A stretch of 53,999 nt of DNA from a candidate division TM6 bacterium UASB340 (GTDB taxonomy: Bacteria > Babelota > Babeliae > Babelales > UASB340), in assembly GCA_001468925.1 (NCBI GenBank), contig LDIX01000001.1, positions 4,258-58,256 on the forward strand, read 5' to 3'. Below, in pieces: positions 16,466 to 32,116 of this stretch. Below the pieces are notes generated by a model that did not search any database, had not been told where the DNA came from, and was given only the letters and a program-made list of their open reading frames with translations. Numbering within the stretch: the stretch's first letter is position 1; each line of letters begins with the position of its first letter. The position numbers and the translations under genes are program-made.

Positions 16466-17929
16466 TTAGAATATAAAGGATATTGTTCCCATAATTGTTG
16501 TATTTCTATAAACCAATCTACCGTTCATATGAGTTTGAAAACCAAGTCCCACTTGCAATCCCGGGGTAAATTCATAGTTTACGCCACCTTGAAACATAGT
16601 GCTTCGCCATTCAGCATTTTTTTCATTAACTTCGGGCAAAAAATAAGCATTTCTTGAAGAATCACTTTCATTCATTTTTATTTCATCTCTATGATGTTTT
16701 AAATAAATAACATCAAGATATGCTGAAAAATCATCTATAAAGTATGGAGCATAAACCGATGCATTAAAATACCATGTAATTCCAGGATCAATCGTTACTC
16801 TTGCCTTCCATGGAAAAATACCCTGCTGATTTTTATCATTTGCTATTCGCTGATTATTTAATGTGCGTTTAAAAAAATGAGCAAAACCTCCACCGACGCC
16901 AAGTTGTACCGCGTCAGGGATATCAAAATTTATTGAACCGTCGGCTGTAATTCCCCAAAAGCCATTGTTACCGGTAGGAAGAGAAAATGCTACATCCGGA
17001 TTTTTTTCTTTACCGGTTGGCAGCCAAGCGCCTACAGCTAAATATGGGACCAAATTTACAACATGCTCGTCATCTCTATCCATTAATTTAAAAGCATCTC
17101 GGTAGTAAAGTTGTACAAACGTATCTTCCAAATTTATCTCTTGTCTTTGAGCAATATCAAGTCCCAATTCTTTACAAATTGCATCCATTTTTTCATATTT
17201 TGTTAAATATTTTTGTATATAAATTTTATCAACATCTTCACCTGGCGTTGGTAAATAAAATGATGGTGTCGTTCTGTAATCAACCAATCCTGTTTTTATA
17301 TTAAGTCCAAGCCCAATTTTTGATACAAAATTTAATTCCAAACGAATTCCCATCTTTTCAGTATCAACATAAGTTGTTGGCATTTTAGTTTTAAATACTG
17401 TTTCGTCAAAATTTTCAGATTTTGTATAATCGATAGAAATTGTTTTTAAATCAAAATCAGTTGCACCACCTTCACTTTGATCATCCAAAACTCTCCAAGC
17501 ATCACTTAATCTTGGGTAATATCCTTGCGTTGTGGCGTCCGGAATATATGGCTGATCACCGCCGGCAGCTTGCGCTAATGCAAAGGGTTTGCTAGAAGGA
17601 GATGCACTAATTAATGTTTGCGCATTATTGCGACCATAAAAAAGTCCCGCCATATTCCACCAGCCAAAAATATCACCTTCCGGCGTTTTTTCACCCTCTT
17701 TATTTCTGGCATGAGAAGTAGTTTGATAAAAAGGCGAGATATGCAATCCGGCTTCAATCGAGCCACTTTCTATTTTTTTATAATATTTATTGGTACCTTG
17801 TATCGTATGATAGGCAAACGGATCATATTGATTATACATTAATGTTGAATAAACAAATTCAGGAACAAACACAATCGATAGCGAAATAAATAATAATTTT
17901 GAAAAAAAATTTGAGAAAAAAAATTTCAT
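16466..17929 (-). CDS. Outer-membrane beta-barrel protein (paralogue of 27642-28970)
   Basis: A 487-residue protein with a signal peptide (about 1-28, LLFISLSIVFVPEFVYS) and alternating aromatic/polar beta strands ending in the terminal phenylalanine typical of barrels inserted by the Bam machinery (GTISFIF). It shares a signature with the protein at 27642: LPTGKEKNPDVAFSLPTGNN followed by FWGITADGSINFDIP and a GVGGGFAHFF stretch here, versus CPTGERV, SIPTGYNHHWGLTGSLELDFG and GGFTWFF there. The two are therefore paralogues. Function is unknown; porin or adhesin are both possible. Confidence 0.75.
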   Translation of the reverse strand: MKFFFSNFFSKLLFISLSIVFVPEFVYSTLMYNQYDPFAYHTIQGTNKYYKKIESGSIEAGLHISPFYQTTSHARNKEGEKTPEGDIFGWWNMAGLFYGRNNAQTLISASPSSKPFALAQAAGGDQPYIPDATTQGYYPRLSDAWRVLDDQSEGGATDFDLKTISIDYTKSENFDETVFKTKMPTTYVDTEKMGIRLELNFVSKIGLGLNIKTGLVDYRTTPSFYLPTPGEDVDKIYIQKYLTKYEKMDAICKELGLDIAQRQEINLEDTFVQLYYRDAFKLMDRDDEHVVNLVPYLAVGAWLPTGKEKNPDVAFSLPTGNNGFWGITADGSINFDIPDAVQLGVGGGFAHFFKRTLNNQRIANDKNQQGIFPWKARVTIDPGITWYFNASVYAPYFIDDFSAYLDVIYLKHHRDEIKMNESDSSRNAYFLPEVNEKNAEWRSTMFQGGVNYEFTPGLQVGLGFQTHMNGRLVYRNTTIMGTISFIF

Positions 17930-24871: not shown

Positions 24872-25552
24872 ATGGCATCAACTCAACTAAGAGTGAAAGA
24901 GCTTCTGCGCGAAAGAGGTTGGACTACTAAAGTTTTAGCTGAAAAGACAGGTATGTCTGAAAGTTATTTGACTCATATAAAAAACGGAACAAGACGTTGG
25001 AATGAAGATTCTTTAAAAAAATTAGCTGTAGCTTTTGATCTTTCACCCATAGATCTTTTTTTATACAAAAAATCCAGAACTGATGATGTCGACAAAAATG
25101 TAAAACTACCTGAAACTACAGGTGTTGATTTGCAATTAAAAGTAGTTCCTGTTGTTGGTCAAATTCCTGCAAATCCATCAGCCTATAACAATCAAATGGT
25201 CCAAGTTACATCCGGATTTAAAGATGTTTTCGTTCCTGTATTTAACATTGCTGATGATTCCATGTTTTGCCTTTTTGTAAAAAGCAATAACATGGCACCC
25301 AATTTTGTAAAAGGCGATTATTTAATAATTTCTCCTGAAAGCTGGACTAGATCGGGCGATATAGCTGCCGTTGAATATACCGCGGGCAATAATTCATCAC
25401 CAACAATTGGCATAATGCAAATAACTTATATGGACGATTTTATAGTTTTAGAATCCGTAAACCATAAAACTGCACCGGTTGCTCTTGTTAATGGAAAAGA
25501 TAATTTTAGAGTTATCGGTAAAGTAATACATAGATACCAAAAATTAGGTTAA
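24872..25552 (+). CDS. XRE-family regulator with inactive S24-like C-terminal domain (copy 1)
   Basis: A 226-residue DNA-binding regulator. Residues about 5-65 are an XRE helix-turn-helix (VLAEKTGMSESYLTHIKNG as the HTH). Residues about 90-226 match the LexA/CI-like S24 fold (VKSNNMAPNFVKGDYLIISP, GDIAAVEY). The nucleophile position that reads Ser in GDSM is Asn140, and the general-base lysine region (IGIMQITYM) has no lysine, so self-cleavage is not expected; the domain likely only dimerises or senses a ligand. It is a close paralogue of the protein at 26535, with an identical recognition helix. The ATG follows AAGGAG. A strong terminator follows. Confidence 0.85.
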   Translation: MASTQLRVKELLRERGWTTKVLAEKTGMSESYLTHIKNGTRRWNEDSLKKLAVAFDLSPIDLFLYKKSRTDDVDKNVKLPETTGVDLQLKVVPVVGQIPANPSAYNNQMVQVTSGFKDVFVPVFNIADDSMFCLFVKSNNMAPNFVKGDYLIISPESWTRSGDIAAVEYTAGNNSSPTIGIMQITYMDDFIVLESVNHKTAPVALVNGKDNFRVIGKVIHRYQKLG

Positions 25553-26534: not shown

Positions 26535-27224
26535 TTAAGACATCTTTTGATATCTATAAATAACTTTACCGATAATTCTAAAGTTATCCTTGCCACGAAC
26601 AAGGGCTTTAGGAGCATTTTTATGATTTACAGATTCTAAAACTACAAAATCTTCCATGTAATTTACTTGCATGATTTCTCTAGTTTTAGTTTCTTGACCA
26701 TACTCAACGGCTACTATATCACCCGATCTTGTCCATACGGCAGGAGATATAATTAATAAATCACCTTTTACAAATTTTGGCGACATACCGTTATCTTGAA
26801 CTTCCAATGCAAAAACATTTTCGTCATCAGCACCAATAACCGGTACAAATTTATCCTGATTTCCAGAAGCAACCTGCATTAATCTATTATTATAGCTTGT
26901 AGGTTCAGATGGAATTTCATTAACAACCGGAGCTAAACGTAATTTAACATCAACCGTTTTTTCCAAATCCGCTAAACCTTCAATATTTGGCATAGCAACA
27001 TTTGTCTGAATCTCTCCGGATTCTTTTCTTAATAAAAGTAAATCTGAAGGATGCAATTCAAAAGCTAACGCAAGCTTTTTTAAAGCATCTTCGTTCCAAC
27101 GTCTTGTTCCATTTTTTATATGAGTCAAATAACTTTCAGACATACCTGTCTTTTCAGCGAGTACTTTTGTGGTCCAACGCTTTTCACGTAAAAGTTCTTG
27201 AACCCTTAATTTTGTAGAAACCAT
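26535..27224 (-). CDS. XRE-family regulator with inactive S24-like C-terminal domain (copy 2)
   Basis: A 229-residue paralogue of the protein at 24872. The N-terminal HTH segment (KVLAEKTGMSESYLTHIKNG and TRRWNED) is identical, so both should recognise the same DNA. The S24-like domain has QDNGMSPKFVKGDLLIISP: glycine replaces the catalytic serine, and the lysine position lies in REIMQVNYM without lysine. The start is the ATG at 27224, placed 5 bases after GGAGGT; the upstream ATG would overlap that site. It is divergent from the outer-membrane/978-residue surface locus, with a perfect 17-bp inverted repeat between them, so it is the obvious candidate regulator of that locus. Confidence 0.85.
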   Translation of the reverse strand: MVSTKLRVQELLREKRWTTKVLAEKTGMSESYLTHIKNGTRRWNEDALKKLALAFELHPSDLLLLRKESGEIQTNVAMPNIEGLADLEKTVDVKLRLAPVVNEIPSEPTSYNNRLMQVASGNQDKFVPVIGADDENVFALEVQDNGMSPKFVKGDLLIISPAVWTRSGDIVAVEYGQETKTREIMQVNYMEDFVVLESVNHKNAPKALVRGKDNFRIIGKVIYRYQKMS

Positions 27225-27382
27225 GATAACCTCCAAAGATTTATATCTACTATTTTAGTCTTTTTCAATAGTAATTCTTTTGTTTCTGTTAGGCAACCGC
27301 ACCCCCAAATATGTATAAAAAACTTAACAATGTGAAAAAAAACGCTGTTTTTCTTTATTTTTGTAATAAAAAATAGTAAATA

Positions 27383-27419
27383 CGTGTAAAAAATGACAGC
27401 AACTGTCATTTTTTACACG
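27383..27419. promoter_or_regulatory. Perfect 17-bp inverted repeat, candidate operator
   Basis: CGTGTAAAAAATGACAG and CTGTCATTTTTTACACG flank a 3-base CAA spacer with no mismatch. The core TGACAG...CTGTCA has the symmetry expected of a dimeric repressor site. Because genes on both sides are transcribed away from it, it is not needed as a terminator, although its A/T runs would allow that role. This 405-bp gap (27225-27641) also contains an 8-bp repeat AGCTTTTT...AAAAAGCT near 27453 and the nested hairpin described next. Confidence 0.6.
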
Positions 27420-27605: not shown

Positions 27606-27641
27606 TTGTTTGTTTAATCTTTTTACGTAAGGGGAGTATTA

Positions 27642-28970
27642 ATGAGACGACAAAATCTCAAGTTGCTCTTTATCGGTCTTTTGATAGCTCAAGGCCTGAG
27701 AGCAACAGATAACGCACACTTTTATAAGAGTGCAAACCTACACAGAAATCCTACTGCTTGTTGGTTCGATGATAAACAATATTATGGAATTTCGGACTGG
27801 CTATGGAAAGTAGACGATAATTTGATGTATGGCGATGCACATTCCGGTTGGGACAAAAACGGTAACACAACAAATATTTTAAATGACACCGGTGCTTACA
27901 ATATGTTATGGTTGTTTGAAAACGTTCAAAAAGTTGACGCCGACATTCAAAATTATGCAAATTTTATGTCAAGCATAACAAGCGATGTTGCGTATGATCC
28001 AAACCAAACTTATGGAACGCTCAAATTTGACGGCAAATTTGAGATGTGGGAATCAAACTATCAAGTTCGCAAAAATCTTAAAAAAGGATTTTTTCTTGAA
28101 GCCCGAGTTCCTGTAAGAGAAGTAAAAATCAAAAATATATCATACACGGATCTATCTCAAGATTATGGACCTTTTTCAAAAGAAAATGCTACTTGGGTTC
28201 AATTTAAAAATCAGTTGAACTCGGTTTTAAACAAGTATGGCTACAAAGATTATAGTACGCCATACGGCAAAACAGGTTTAGGTGATATTAGTTTGTTACT
28301 TGGTTGGGAAGATATTTTTGAAAAACGCAATGACGAAGGTGAAGATGTATTTACATTGGATCTTTCAGCTCGTTTGGGATTTTTATGTCCAACCGGCGAA
28401 CGTGTAAAAACCGATTATATTTTTTCAATACCTACAGGATATAATCATCACTGGGGTTTAACCGGATCTTTAGAACTTGATTTTGGAGTTCTAAGATGGT
28501 TAAGCATAGATTTATTCGGTGGATTTACATGGTTCTTTGACGAAAATAGACGTGAAATGAGAATGCAAACATTTAGTGAACAAAATGGTCACATAATGCT
28601 TGCAAAAGGTTTGGCTAAAGAAGAAAAAGGTACACTTTGGTACTTAGGTGCAGACATAAAGTTTGACCACTTCTGGAAAGGCCTTTCAGGTATATTTGGA
28701 TATTCTTACAATAGACAAGAAGAAGATTCCATAACACCTGATGACACAACTCTTTTTGATAAAACTGCTGTAAATAAAAATAGCATGTTACACGGTTGGT
28801 ATACGCATGTATTGCATTTCATGCTTGATTACGATTTTTCAATTCATATGAAAGAAACAACCAAATGGGCTCCAAGAGTCAATGTATTTTATGAATTACC
28901 TATAGACGGTAAAAATTCATATAAAACGGATCCGTTTGGTGTAGGAATTGGTGTTGATCTATTGTGGTAA
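27642..28970 (+). CDS. Outer-membrane beta-barrel protein (paralogue of 16466-17929)
   Basis: A 442-residue exported protein with a short signal peptide (LLFIGLLIAQGLRA, about 8-21) and a C-terminus in aromatic tryptophan (DLLW), as expected of a beta barrel. Strands alternate in GTLKFDGKFEMWESNYQVRK, FTLDLSARLGFLCPTG and HWGLTGSLELDFG. It shares the PTG...S.PTGYN..WG signature with the other barrel in the window. It has a strong ribosome site and is followed 36 bases later by the giant exported protein, so the two are probably one operon. Function is unknown; I suggest a surface or export role. Confidence 0.75.
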   Translation: MRRQNLKLLFIGLLIAQGLRATDNAHFYKSANLHRNPTACWFDDKQYYGISDWLWKVDDNLMYGDAHSGWDKNGNTTNILNDTGAYNMLWLFENVQKVDADIQNYANFMSSITSDVAYDPNQTYGTLKFDGKFEMWESNYQVRKNLKKGFFLEARVPVREVKIKNISYTDLSQDYGPFSKENATWVQFKNQLNSVLNKYGYKDYSTPYGKTGLGDISLLLGWEDIFEKRNDEGEDVFTLDLSARLGFLCPTGERVKTDYIFSIPTGYNHHWGLTGSLELDFGVLRWLSIDLFGGFTWFFDENRREMRMQTFSEQNGHIMLAKGLAKEEKGTLWYLGADIKFDHFWKGLSGIFGYSYNRQEEDSITPDDTTLFDKTAVNKNSMLHGWYTHVLHFMLDYDFSIHMKETTKWAPRVNVFYELPIDGKNSYKTDPFGVGIGVDLLW

Positions 28971-29006
28971 AAGCCATAATAAATTTTTAAATTATAGGAG
29001 AATTAA

Positions 29007-31943
29007 ATGAGACGAATAAGGATAATGCTGCTGGCACTATTATGTGTCGGCTTATCTTCCCCCTTGTTTGCTGTTGAGACTGTAGAAAAAACTACTGGAA
29101 ATAATTTTACAGCGAATATTGTTGCAAAGGCATTTGACAGATACACCGGAGATTTTTATATAGGCCTTGGCGCAGCCGAAGCTGCTTATACAATTTCTAA
29201 AGCAGGAAGATCTGCTCTTACATTTACAGGTATAGCAGATGGCGCTGATGTACCGGTTGCAAGAGCAAATGGTTATTTTGGGTTAGCAAGTACAAATGGA
29301 ACAAATGCAAATTATGTAGGATTTAATACTTTAGCAACAACAGGAAATACTGGGCTATCTGCAATCGCGACAACAGGTGGAGCAAAGTTTGATGCAGCTC
29401 TTGGAACAGCTGCAGCCCAAATTAATTTGACGGATGGAACAGCTGCGACAACAATAAGTAAAATTACCGGAGGATATTATGATGGATCTGCTGGCGATTT
29501 AGGCGGTTCTGCTGGTGCTTACTTTTTTGTTAGGGCAAGAAAAGCCGCATTTGATGGCATAGATTTTACAGCTACAAGCGGCATTAAAGCATTTCGTGTA
29601 AATACCGCAACGCCTGCATTTGTGGGTGTTGGAGTCACTACTGCAAATGAACATGCTGTAAAATATGATGCTGCAATTGGCGCTGCTGGAGACGGATCAC
29701 CCGCAAGACATACCAGTGTAATTGCCCTTGCAAACGATACTGATTCGCATATAAACGATATGTATTGGGATCAAAAATTAAATACTTTGTTTTTATGTTC
29801 AACAATTAAAGGTGGCGATGGTGCATCAAAATTAATGGCCATATCAAAGGTTAAATTCAAAAATTTAGCAGAAGAAAAACTTGTTATTTCTGATATCGTA
29901 GGATCTGGAATAAACCCACTTGCAGATGACACTTCAACAATTTTTATAAAAAATACAACAGCAACAGATACAATATCAATTCTAAAAATCAGAACGATGC
30001 AAACAAGTACCGGCAAATGGTACTTAATAGTCAACGGAGATATAGGAGCTGAAAACACTGTTGGCAATAAATTTTATGCATTACGCTATGATAAAGATGC
30101 ATCATTAGGAGCTGATCCGTTAGACACAGCTCCATACTTAGGAAAAATAGTACAAAATAATACAGCCGGATCTGCACTTGCTGCAGATTTCACACTTGAC
30201 GCTGCTAATAATGCTTTAGATGGTGGCAATACAGGTTCGCTACAGGTTGGTGGACAAGTTGCTCCATGGCAACCAGCATATACAGCTTCAGATATGGAAG
30301 TTGTAGGTGATACGGTTTATGTATCTATGTCCGGATCTGTAAGAGATGCAAATAATGATCCTGGAGTCTGGGCTTCAACAGCCATGTTTGATAAAGATGG
30401 TGTAATTATCGGTTGGACCGCCTGGGAAAGAGTAATGCCTTCTCAAGGTGCAACTTTTTATGACAGAACAAACTTTTTTGCAATTGATGCAGTAAACAAC
30501 AAGATTTGGGCCGCACCTTATTCTGCCGAAGATGAGTATAAAAAAGTTGTTCGTATGGGTTGGGTAGATGGAGTAGCTACAGCATTCACGGCAAATTCAT
30601 TACCAGCATCTTTATATAATAAATTTAGTGCATTAACATATAAAAATTGTGTATGCACTTTAGACCTACCGGCACTAACTCCAGGTTTAGCTAAGGCAAC
30701 ACATGATGCAGCACAATTAGCATCTATTGCATTATTCGGCGGATATGAAAAAGTTTGCTTCGCTAGAACTTCTACATGGGGTAAAACAAGCGCAACAGAA
30801 CATGCTCAAGTTCCTACAGCAATAGCAGGCTTTGCAGCCGGAGCTAACTTTATAGAAACATCTCTACCTTCCGGTGCAGCAACAGTAAGATGCCTAGGCT
30901 ATTCACGTCGTGTTGACAATAGCGCCTCATCATACTTTTTTGCCGGAACAGACAAAGGTCTTTGGGCATATTGCCATCCTACAACATTTGCAGGTTTCAA
31001 CGGTAGTACAGGTTTAACAACATTAGCAGCAGCTCCATTTACAGATGGTGCTAATTCATTTGCATGGAAACAACTCTTTGCATCCGATATAAAAGGTGCA
31101 GTAACTGCCATAGATGCTGATGGAACATATGTTTATGTTGTAGAACAAGACTTAACAACAGTTGGTGGATTTACATCAAAACTATGGAGATTGCCACTTG
31201 GAGCAGTTGCAACATCAATGACCCCAGTATTAATTGCTCAATCCGGTTCAGATGAAATTCCAGCCAACACAATTTTTACAGGCTTTAAATTTATCACGGA
31301 TGCTCAAGGTGTAAGAGCAACAGGAGCTCATCGCGGTATCATATCAACCAATCTAGGTTTGATACAATCCAGCGAAGCTCTAAAAAACTTAACAACAGCA
31401 GGTAACAATGCACCGAACACATGGATTGCCGTAAGCTCAAGTAGAGCATACAGATCTTTATACTCGCCAAAACGAGTACCGGCAACGCCTGCAACCAATG
31501 ATGGTGCATGCCACAAAGTATTTGCCAATGCGTTTATCGATGCAGAAAACAATTGGTACCAAAATAGTTCATATCACCAATTCGGATCAAACGTAACAAT
31601 GAACGACACCGGTGAAAATACCAGAAATGCCAGTGGCTACATAAATTATACAAACAGAGATATGGCAAACGGAACCAGAAAAAATTATGTAGACAGATCC
31701 ATGAATTTCTGGACAGACGGCGGACGTCGCTTCTACACAAGATTTAATGCATCTGAATGGGTAGCAGATAAAACAAAACCAAATATGCTTGAATCTTTAC
31801 CATTTGATGCTCAACAATGGAATATGAGCACACCATATAAAACATCCGATGTTGAAACAGAAAATATACACTGGATAGAAAATATTTCAGGTCTTGGAAT
31901 AATTCTTGCCGGTACAGGCAATGGTGTAATTGCATTAGAGTAA
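29007..31943 (+). CDS. Large exported Ala/Gly/Thr-rich protein, probable beta-propeller-like surface protein
   Basis: A 978-residue protein with a classical signal peptide (MLLALLCVGLSSPLFA, cleavage after about residue 22). Composition is rich in alanine, glycine and threonine, and base composition is visibly less AT-rich than the neighbours. Segments such as NDMYWDQKLNTLFLCS, MEVVGDTVYVSMSG, FAIDAVNNKIWAAPY, AIDADGTYVYVVEQ and IENISGLGIILAGTGNG look like repeated beta blades of a propeller. I see no catalytic motif and no family name. The ATG follows TAGGAGAA. It likely works with the barrel protein upstream, perhaps as a surface-layer, adhesion or secreted factor; that is inference. Confidence 0.75.
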   Translation: MRRIRIMLLALLCVGLSSPLFAVETVEKTTGNNFTANIVAKAFDRYTGDFYIGLGAAEAAYTISKAGRSALTFTGIADGADVPVARANGYFGLASTNGTNANYVGFNTLATTGNTGLSAIATTGGAKFDAALGTAAAQINLTDGTAATTISKITGGYYDGSAGDLGGSAGAYFFVRARKAAFDGIDFTATSGIKAFRVNTATPAFVGVGVTTANEHAVKYDAAIGAAGDGSPARHTSVIALANDTDSHINDMYWDQKLNTLFLCSTIKGGDGASKLMAISKVKFKNLAEEKLVISDIVGSGINPLADDTSTIFIKNTTATDTISILKIRTMQTSTGKWYLIVNGDIGAENTVGNKFYALRYDKDASLGADPLDTAPYLGKIVQNNTAGSALAADFTLDAANNALDGGNTGSLQVGGQVAPWQPAYTASDMEVVGDTVYVSMSGSVRDANNDPGVWASTAMFDKDGVIIGWTAWERVMPSQGATFYDRTNFFAIDAVNNKIWAAPYSAEDEYKKVVRMGWVDGVATAFTANSLPASLYNKFSALTYKNCVCTLDLPALTPGLAKATHDAAQLASIALFGGYEKVCFARTSTWGKTSATEHAQVPTAIAGFAAGANFIETSLPSGAATVRCLGYSRRVDNSASSYFFAGTDKGLWAYCHPTTFAGFNGSTGLTTLAAAPFTDGANSFAWKQLFASDIKGAVTAIDADGTYVYVVEQDLTTVGGFTSKLWRLPLGAVATSMTPVLIAQSGSDEIPANTIFTGFKFITDAQGVRATGAHRGIISTNLGLIQSSEALKNLTTAGNNAPNTWIAVSSSRAYRSLYSPKRVPATPATNDGACHKVFANAFIDAENNWYQNSSYHQFGSNVTMNDTGENTRNASGYINYTNRDMANGTRKNYVDRSMNFWTDGGRRFYTRFNASEWVADKTKPNMLESLPFDAQQWNMSTPYKTSDVETENIHWIENISGLGIILAGTGNGVIALE

Positions 31944-31944
31944 T

Positions 31945-31976
31945 TCTTTACGTAGGGGACGGCTATCGCCGTCTCC
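31945..31976. repeat. Hairpin repeat, unit 1 of the 31944-32271 gap
   Basis: TCTTTACGTAGGGGAC is followed by a hairpin GGGGACGGC/GCCGTCTCC (8 of 9 pairs, loop TATC). The same 16-base lead occurs again at 32081. It lies directly after the stop of the large exported protein, so it could also end that transcript. Confidence 0.7.
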
Positions 31977-32012
31977 ACAATATTATTAACTTAAGAAATT
32001 ACGAAGAATCGT

Positions 32013-32040
32013 GTCATCCCGGCCACCGAGCCGGGATCTC
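32013..32040. repeat. GTCATCC-type palindromic repeat (GC-rich version)
   Basis: ATCCCGGC (32016-32023) pairs perfectly with GCCGGGAT (32030-32037). The outer GTCATCC...GGATCTC frame is the same as in the elements at 20863 and 36771, though the arm sequence differs. Short palindromes of this form are found between genes in many bacteria. Confidence 0.65.
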
Positions 32041-32080
32041 TTATTTATGCATTCTTTTTTGTAAATAATTTAATTCAAAG

Positions 32081-32116
32081 TCTTTACGTAGGGGACTTTG
32101 TTTGAAAGTCCCCTAC
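32081..32116. repeat. Hairpin repeat, unit 2 of the 31944-32271 gap
   Basis: TCTTTACGTAGGGGAC repeats the lead of unit 1, and GTAGGGGACTTT (32088-32099) pairs perfectly with AAAGTCCCCTAC (32105-32116) around a 5-base loop. Confidence 0.75.

Follow-up and report, generated by a model that had tools for sequence, protein, structure and literature searches.

Two neighboring genes in a 53,999-nucleotide stretch of contig LDIX01000001.1 (the window), from the candidate division TM6 bacterium UASB340, a member of Candidatus Dependentiae (TM6, Babelota), raise the question whether a putative outer-membrane barrel and the giant exported protein encoded behind it work as a pair, and what such a pair would do. 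The barrel gene (27642..28970, + strand) encodes 442 residues and the large gene (29007..31943, + strand) encodes 978 residues, with exactly 36 bases between the stop codon of the former and the start codon of the latter. Good ribosome binding sites are present at AAGGGGAG (27629..27636, + strand), 5 nt before the ATG of the barrel gene, and at AGGAG (28996..29000, + strand), inside the gap and 6 nt before the ATG of the large gene. The open reading frames and ribosome binding sites confirm the arrangement given in a preliminary description of this DNA, i.e., a barrel gene with a strong ribosome site followed closely by a gene for a 978-residue protein.

To establish how widely this arrangement is kept, 101 genomes, which form an identical set for the order and the phylum, were searched with a 29-row profile of the large protein and a 30-row profile of the barrel. 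The large-protein family was present in 93 genomes, including 65 of the 68 of good quality, and the barrel family in 98, including all 68 of good quality. In at least 75 of the 88 genomes with listed matches, the two genes are adjacent and on the same strand, separated by a median of about 44 bases; the adjacency counts are lower bounds, in part because some contigs end at the pair. Because homologous pairs are adjacent in so many genomes, the pairing of barrel and large protein is far beyond chance. The co-occurrence in related genomes that the preliminary description proposed to look for was thus found. Among the listed pairs, the large gene comes first in at least 75 cases and the barrel gene in at least 30. 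A scan of GTDB genomes for short patterns taken from the large protein returned one relative, a metagenome-assembled genome. Viral contigs gave no match with a single barrel query, and no match to the barrel was found in plasmids.

The two gene orders reflect two types of the pair. Quick trees, calculated from 42 barrel and 39 large-protein sequences with no bootstrap and with support from the Shimodaira–Hasegawa-like approximate likelihood ratio test (SH-aLRT), both split at a matching branch into two types with 100% SH-aLRT support. In type I the large gene precedes the barrel gene, in type II it follows, and the types occupy separate syntenic sites. Not a single locus pairs the barrel of one type with the large protein of the other. 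The window pair belongs to type II, and a type I pair lies on contig 23 (L043) of the same genome; genome G051 carries a type I pair as well. Stoichiometry at the loci varies: one barrel gene is followed by two large genes in L069, and in a type I locus (L061) three large genes precede one barrel gene. The sole type II case with another gene order is a tandem array of large, barrel and large gene (L048), which suggests how the order could flip.

The type II site outside the family of the window genome adjoins GrpE, with SSB further on. Barrel genes on the GrpE side stand alone in six loci (L075-L080) and are followed by a large gene in four (L050, L051, L052 and L069). Within the family of the window genome, the barrel gene is located in an RNase HII-FtsY-PrmC neighborhood, and in G002 (L074) it occurs alone in that neighborhood.

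Sequence signals point strongly to an outer-membrane beta-barrel for the 442-residue protein. Outer-membrane barrels typically end in an aromatic residue, and a C-terminal Phe, Tyr or Trp was found in 93 of 100 family members as compared to 30 of 227 other proteins. A beta-signal-like end was present in 87 of the 100 members and in 10 of the 227 other proteins. According to a simple heuristic (not SignalP), 97 of the 100 members have a hydrophobic signal-like N-terminus. The window protein has the highest beta-amphipathicity of all window proteins longer than 180 residues and exceeds the 99th percentile of the comparison set. The barrel matched no family in NCBIfam or PHROGs, and none in Pfam apart from a weak match to OMP_b-brl in 2 of 86 members (best E 0.03); PDB profile searches with 30 and 86 rows gave no credible match. 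The genome encodes two Omp85 genes, both away from the window pair. The second of these (L043 515-3334, - strand) encodes a 940-residue protein with a POTRA domain about 1.6 kb downstream of the genome's own type I pair, and Omp85 was not seen at that place in other genomes. The window also encodes a 487-residue distant relative of the barrel (16466-17929, - strand; E about 1e-14) that has the second-highest beta-amphipathicity in the window, and several barrel relatives of about 400-600 residues occur per genome.

The 978-residue protein is rich in Ala, Gly, Thr, Ser and Asn. Its content of 34% Ala, Gly and Thr and its cleavable-type signal peptide (29007-29072, + strand; MRRIRIMLLALLCVGLSSPLFA/VE) agree with the earlier notion of an Ala/Gly/Thr-rich exported protein, and 91 of 99 family members have a signal-like N-terminus. 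A lipobox was not found in the large protein. Among six near relatives, conservation is highest in the C-terminal 28 residues. Of 60 newly fetched members, 48 end in Glu or Gln. In keeping with the undescribed locus proposed earlier, the protein matched no known family: 29 members gave no Pfam match, S-layer and PQQ/BamB-type domains included, there was none in NCBIfam or PHROGs, and PDB profile searches with 29 and 88 rows gave no credible match, so that neither a known propeller family nor a solved propeller was recovered by these searches. When the profile was compared with itself, weak internal repeats emerged at best probabilities of 30-52%, whereas a control with reversed columns did not exceed 8%. 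Their members mostly lie about 330 residues apart, for example 417-515 with 747-853 and 628-655 with 955-971. These repeats are compatible with tandem propeller-like units, short of proof. In some families (genomes G069, G073, G023, G008 and G074), matches to the large-protein profile lie inside open frames of 1,300-2,100 residues, which suggests larger multidomain versions of the large protein.

The two partners differ in their rate of change. Between the two nearest genomes, G000 and G004, the latter a member of the family group of the window genome, the type II barrels share 64.5% identity and the type II large proteins 45%. For type I the corresponding values are 66% and 59%. Linked genes range from 30% to 86% identity, most of them above 52%; the large protein therefore diverges faster than its own barrel and most linked genes.

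What would such a pair do? We tentatively favor a cognate envelope module in which the barrel anchors, or helps to export, a fast-evolving surface protein that faces the protist host. Both proteins carry signal peptides in their sequences and would be exported by the Sec-type route. The aromatic signal at its C-terminus would then direct the barrel into the outer membrane, where the BamA-type Omp85 of the genome would most likely insert it, and the large protein would be retained at the outer membrane, or conveyed across it, by its own barrel, to be displayed outside as a fast-changing contact protein toward the protist host; we infer its surface location. The barrel would act as a fixed anchor and the large protein as a variable passenger, with types I and II as two paralogous versions of ancient origin, each of which has kept its own partners. 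We prefer this explanation because the genes are adjacent in most genomes, in both orders, with trees that split into unmixed types; because the barrel is kept alone or with one to three large proteins; and because barrels have an aromatic C-terminus and a beta-signal, and the genome encodes Omp85. It is further favored by the faster change of the large protein in a phylum of which all known members have phagotrophic protists as hosts (PMC12172432), and by the precedent of barrels that anchor a large surface partner.

That precedent comes from the Bacteroidota, where the barrel of the PorP/PG1035 and SprF/SprB pairs anchors a large type B C-terminal domain partner on the surface (PMC9143113). 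Like the pair, these systems combine a barrel in the outer membrane with a large partner that is exported, and they are the nearest mechanistic precedent, but they belong to a different phylum and the pair has no match to the C-terminal domain of the type IX secretion system. Membership of the PorP/SprF family itself was rejected, since PF11751 (PorP_SprF) matches nothing in the genome and no barrel member. Two-partner secretion (TpsB/TpsA) similarly combines a barrel and a large exported protein in two genes; however, the 442-residue barrel has no POTRA or ShlB-type domain, and the large protein has no TPS or haemagglutination-activity domain.

Several points weigh against an anchored or exported surface protein. 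Matching trees would arise from tight linkage alone, and in many genomes type II barrels occur with no large protein next to them. A periplasmic protein under relaxed constraint would likewise be expected to evolve faster, and the propeller fold is suggested by internal repeats that are weak. Structure prediction was of no help: an AlphaFold2 model of the barrel from its single sequence reached a pLDDT (predicted local distance difference test score) of 29.9, a model of the large protein with one relative reached 29, and both were unusable.

The main rival is a periplasmic role. The large protein might be an accessory that docks beneath the barrel as a scaffold, chaperone or binding protein, and the barrel a porin or transporter that feeds an energy-poor intracellular parasite. 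Propellers are common periplasmic docking modules, and BamB, a propeller that docks on BamA, could serve as the model. The signal peptide of the large protein, with no further sorting signal seen, and the conservation of a barrel that is able to stand alone would agree with such a role. BamA/BamB resembles the pair in that a barrel at the outer membrane has a propeller partner, but the barrel of the pair matches neither POTRA nor Omp85, and the large protein is no lipoprotein and lacks a PQQ-repeat match. The absence of a PQQ/BamB-type Pfam match and of a lipobox counts against this role, and several large proteins per barrel together with their faster change fit a variable passenger better. 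We consider a periplasmic accessory somewhat unlikely.

The neighbors of the type I pair bring in a second alternative. In the fetched loci, type I often follows Lon, an ABC ATPase and MurJ, or has a ComM-type gene as its neighbor. A GspF/GspG/pseudopilin cluster is found within about three genes of the pair in 7 of 17 loci. This cluster lies close downstream of the pair in L053 (151-2778), and also in L054, L056, L057, L066, L072 and L073; an exported protein of about 370 residues and of unknown family is encoded on the opposite strand between pair and cluster. In another locus, the gene directly after the type I pair (L047 3248-5146, - strand) encodes a 633-residue protein with WD40-type propeller matches. 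Type II-like machines export folded Sec substrates, and a type II secretion or type IV pilus-like machine might carry the large protein across the outer membrane, with the barrel only a co-regulated major outer-membrane protein. The proximity of the cluster makes this route possible for type I, but it is not favored for type II, since the window pair is nowhere near such a cluster. Moreover, the gene between the type I pair and the cluster runs in the opposite direction, and the type-specific pairing of the barrel would be left unexplained. We regard export by such a machine as improbable.

The base composition of the large gene had been read as a sign of abundant expression or transfer. The gene is indeed richer in G+C than its surroundings (0.40 as compared to about 0.30), as described earlier. 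However, the values at the three codon positions are 0.48, 0.50 and 0.22, and the excess at position 2 is due to the Ala, Gly and Thr content. At position 3, the G+C content of 0.22 is near that of the other genes in the window (about 0.18). Horizontal transfer was rejected on the basis of this pattern, the phylum-wide distribution of the family and the matching trees. Both pair genes show low codon adaptation to ribosomal and rpo genes, at 0.60 and 0.62. For the pair, the composition points neither to transfer nor to strong codon selection, and that part of the preliminary description had to be abandoned.

Codon usage also bears on the possibility that both proteins are abundant coat proteins of an envelope that lacks lipopolysaccharide, without specific interaction and co-transcribed for stoichiometry. 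The strong ribosome sites and the Ala/Gly/Thr/Ser/Asn-rich composition of the large protein would suit such a bulk structure. LptD had no match in the genome, of which the assembly is 91% complete, and the genome of C. destructans (Chromulinavorax) has no lipopolysaccharide genes (PMC6561590). On the other hand, abundant coat proteins are hard to reconcile with a codon adaptation that is low for the genome, with genomes that have no large protein, and with the lack of an S-layer domain match (SLH or other known anchoring domain) in 29 large-protein members. A bulk envelope structure of this kind is very unlikely.

It remains to consider regulation, for which the preliminary description had invoked a divergent XRE regulator dedicated to the pair and a complex control region. 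The regulator gene is real (26535..27236, - strand) and encodes Pfam HTH and Peptidase_S24 domains, but it is not dedicated. A homologue of this XRE-S24 protein is present in 48 of 49 genomes of the order, in most cases with 56-77% identity and largely with about 60-67%. Among the fetched pair loci it lies near the pair in only two genomes, that of the window and its closest relative; in the latter (L042), genes for RNase HII and a HAS-barrel protein separate the two, so that the divergent position directly beside the pair is confined to the window genome. As a near-universal core gene that is unlinked to the pair elsewhere, it was rejected as a dedicated regulator: XRE-S24 is a core regulator and a chance neighbor of the pair here, and we place it outside the module. 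In the order, XRE-S24 sometimes occurs as a tandem pair. In the window, two paralogues (24872-25552 and 26535-27236) lie on either side of rpsR/rpsF. Visual inspection shows Gly or Asn at the usual position of the S24 catalytic serine, which makes self-cleavage unlikely.

As for the control region, there is one near-perfect inverted repeat with 17-bp arms and a 3-base loop (27383..27419) between the XRE and barrel genes, terminator-like or operator-like in appearance. Promoter-like sites are at shuffle level, with 20 found as compared to 19.1 expected, so that the complex control region of the preliminary description is borne out only in part. The core of the hairpin occurs once in the whole genome, and no counterpart was found upstream of the genes of the closest relative (L042). 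The hairpin therefore marks no shared regulon, and the palindrome was rejected as a regulon operator. Downstream of the large gene lies a terminator-like hairpin (32016..32037, + strand). Two copies of the 14-mer TTTACGTAGGGGAC, 136 bases apart, lie directly 3' of the large gene (31947-32097), and none elsewhere in the genome; this stretch gave no Rfam match. Of the regulated surface or secretion module that had been proposed, the conserved module with two exported proteins stands, whereas the dedicated regulation does not.

The pair has parallels in earlier observations on the phylum. For Babela massiliensis, many secreted beta-propeller proteins were noted without assigned roles, in passages that describe no conserved barrel partner, two types or phylum-wide conservation (PMC4378268), and surface antigens of unknown function were noted for Chromulinavorax (PMC6561590). 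Open-access full-text literature on Dependentiae or Babelota that deals with barrels, propellers, surface or outer membrane gave no account of the pair. Because nearly the whole phylum keeps it, the pair is probably a basic yet undescribed component of the cell surface in this phylum. A bolder proposal would make it the principal protein coat and the apparatus for host contact of the whole phylum of intracellular parasites, with an outer membrane free of lipopolysaccharide in which dedicated barrels, in two ancient and non-interchangeable versions, each display a fast-evolving propeller-like protein; we think this unlikely. Apart from Chlamydiota, Dependentiae are the only phylum whose members have all been described as parasites (PMC12172432). 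A two-gene envelope module that occurs in more than 90% of the Dependentiae genomes, and for which Pfam, NCBIfam and PDB gave no match, offers a concrete candidate for the interface at which Dependentiae meet their hosts.

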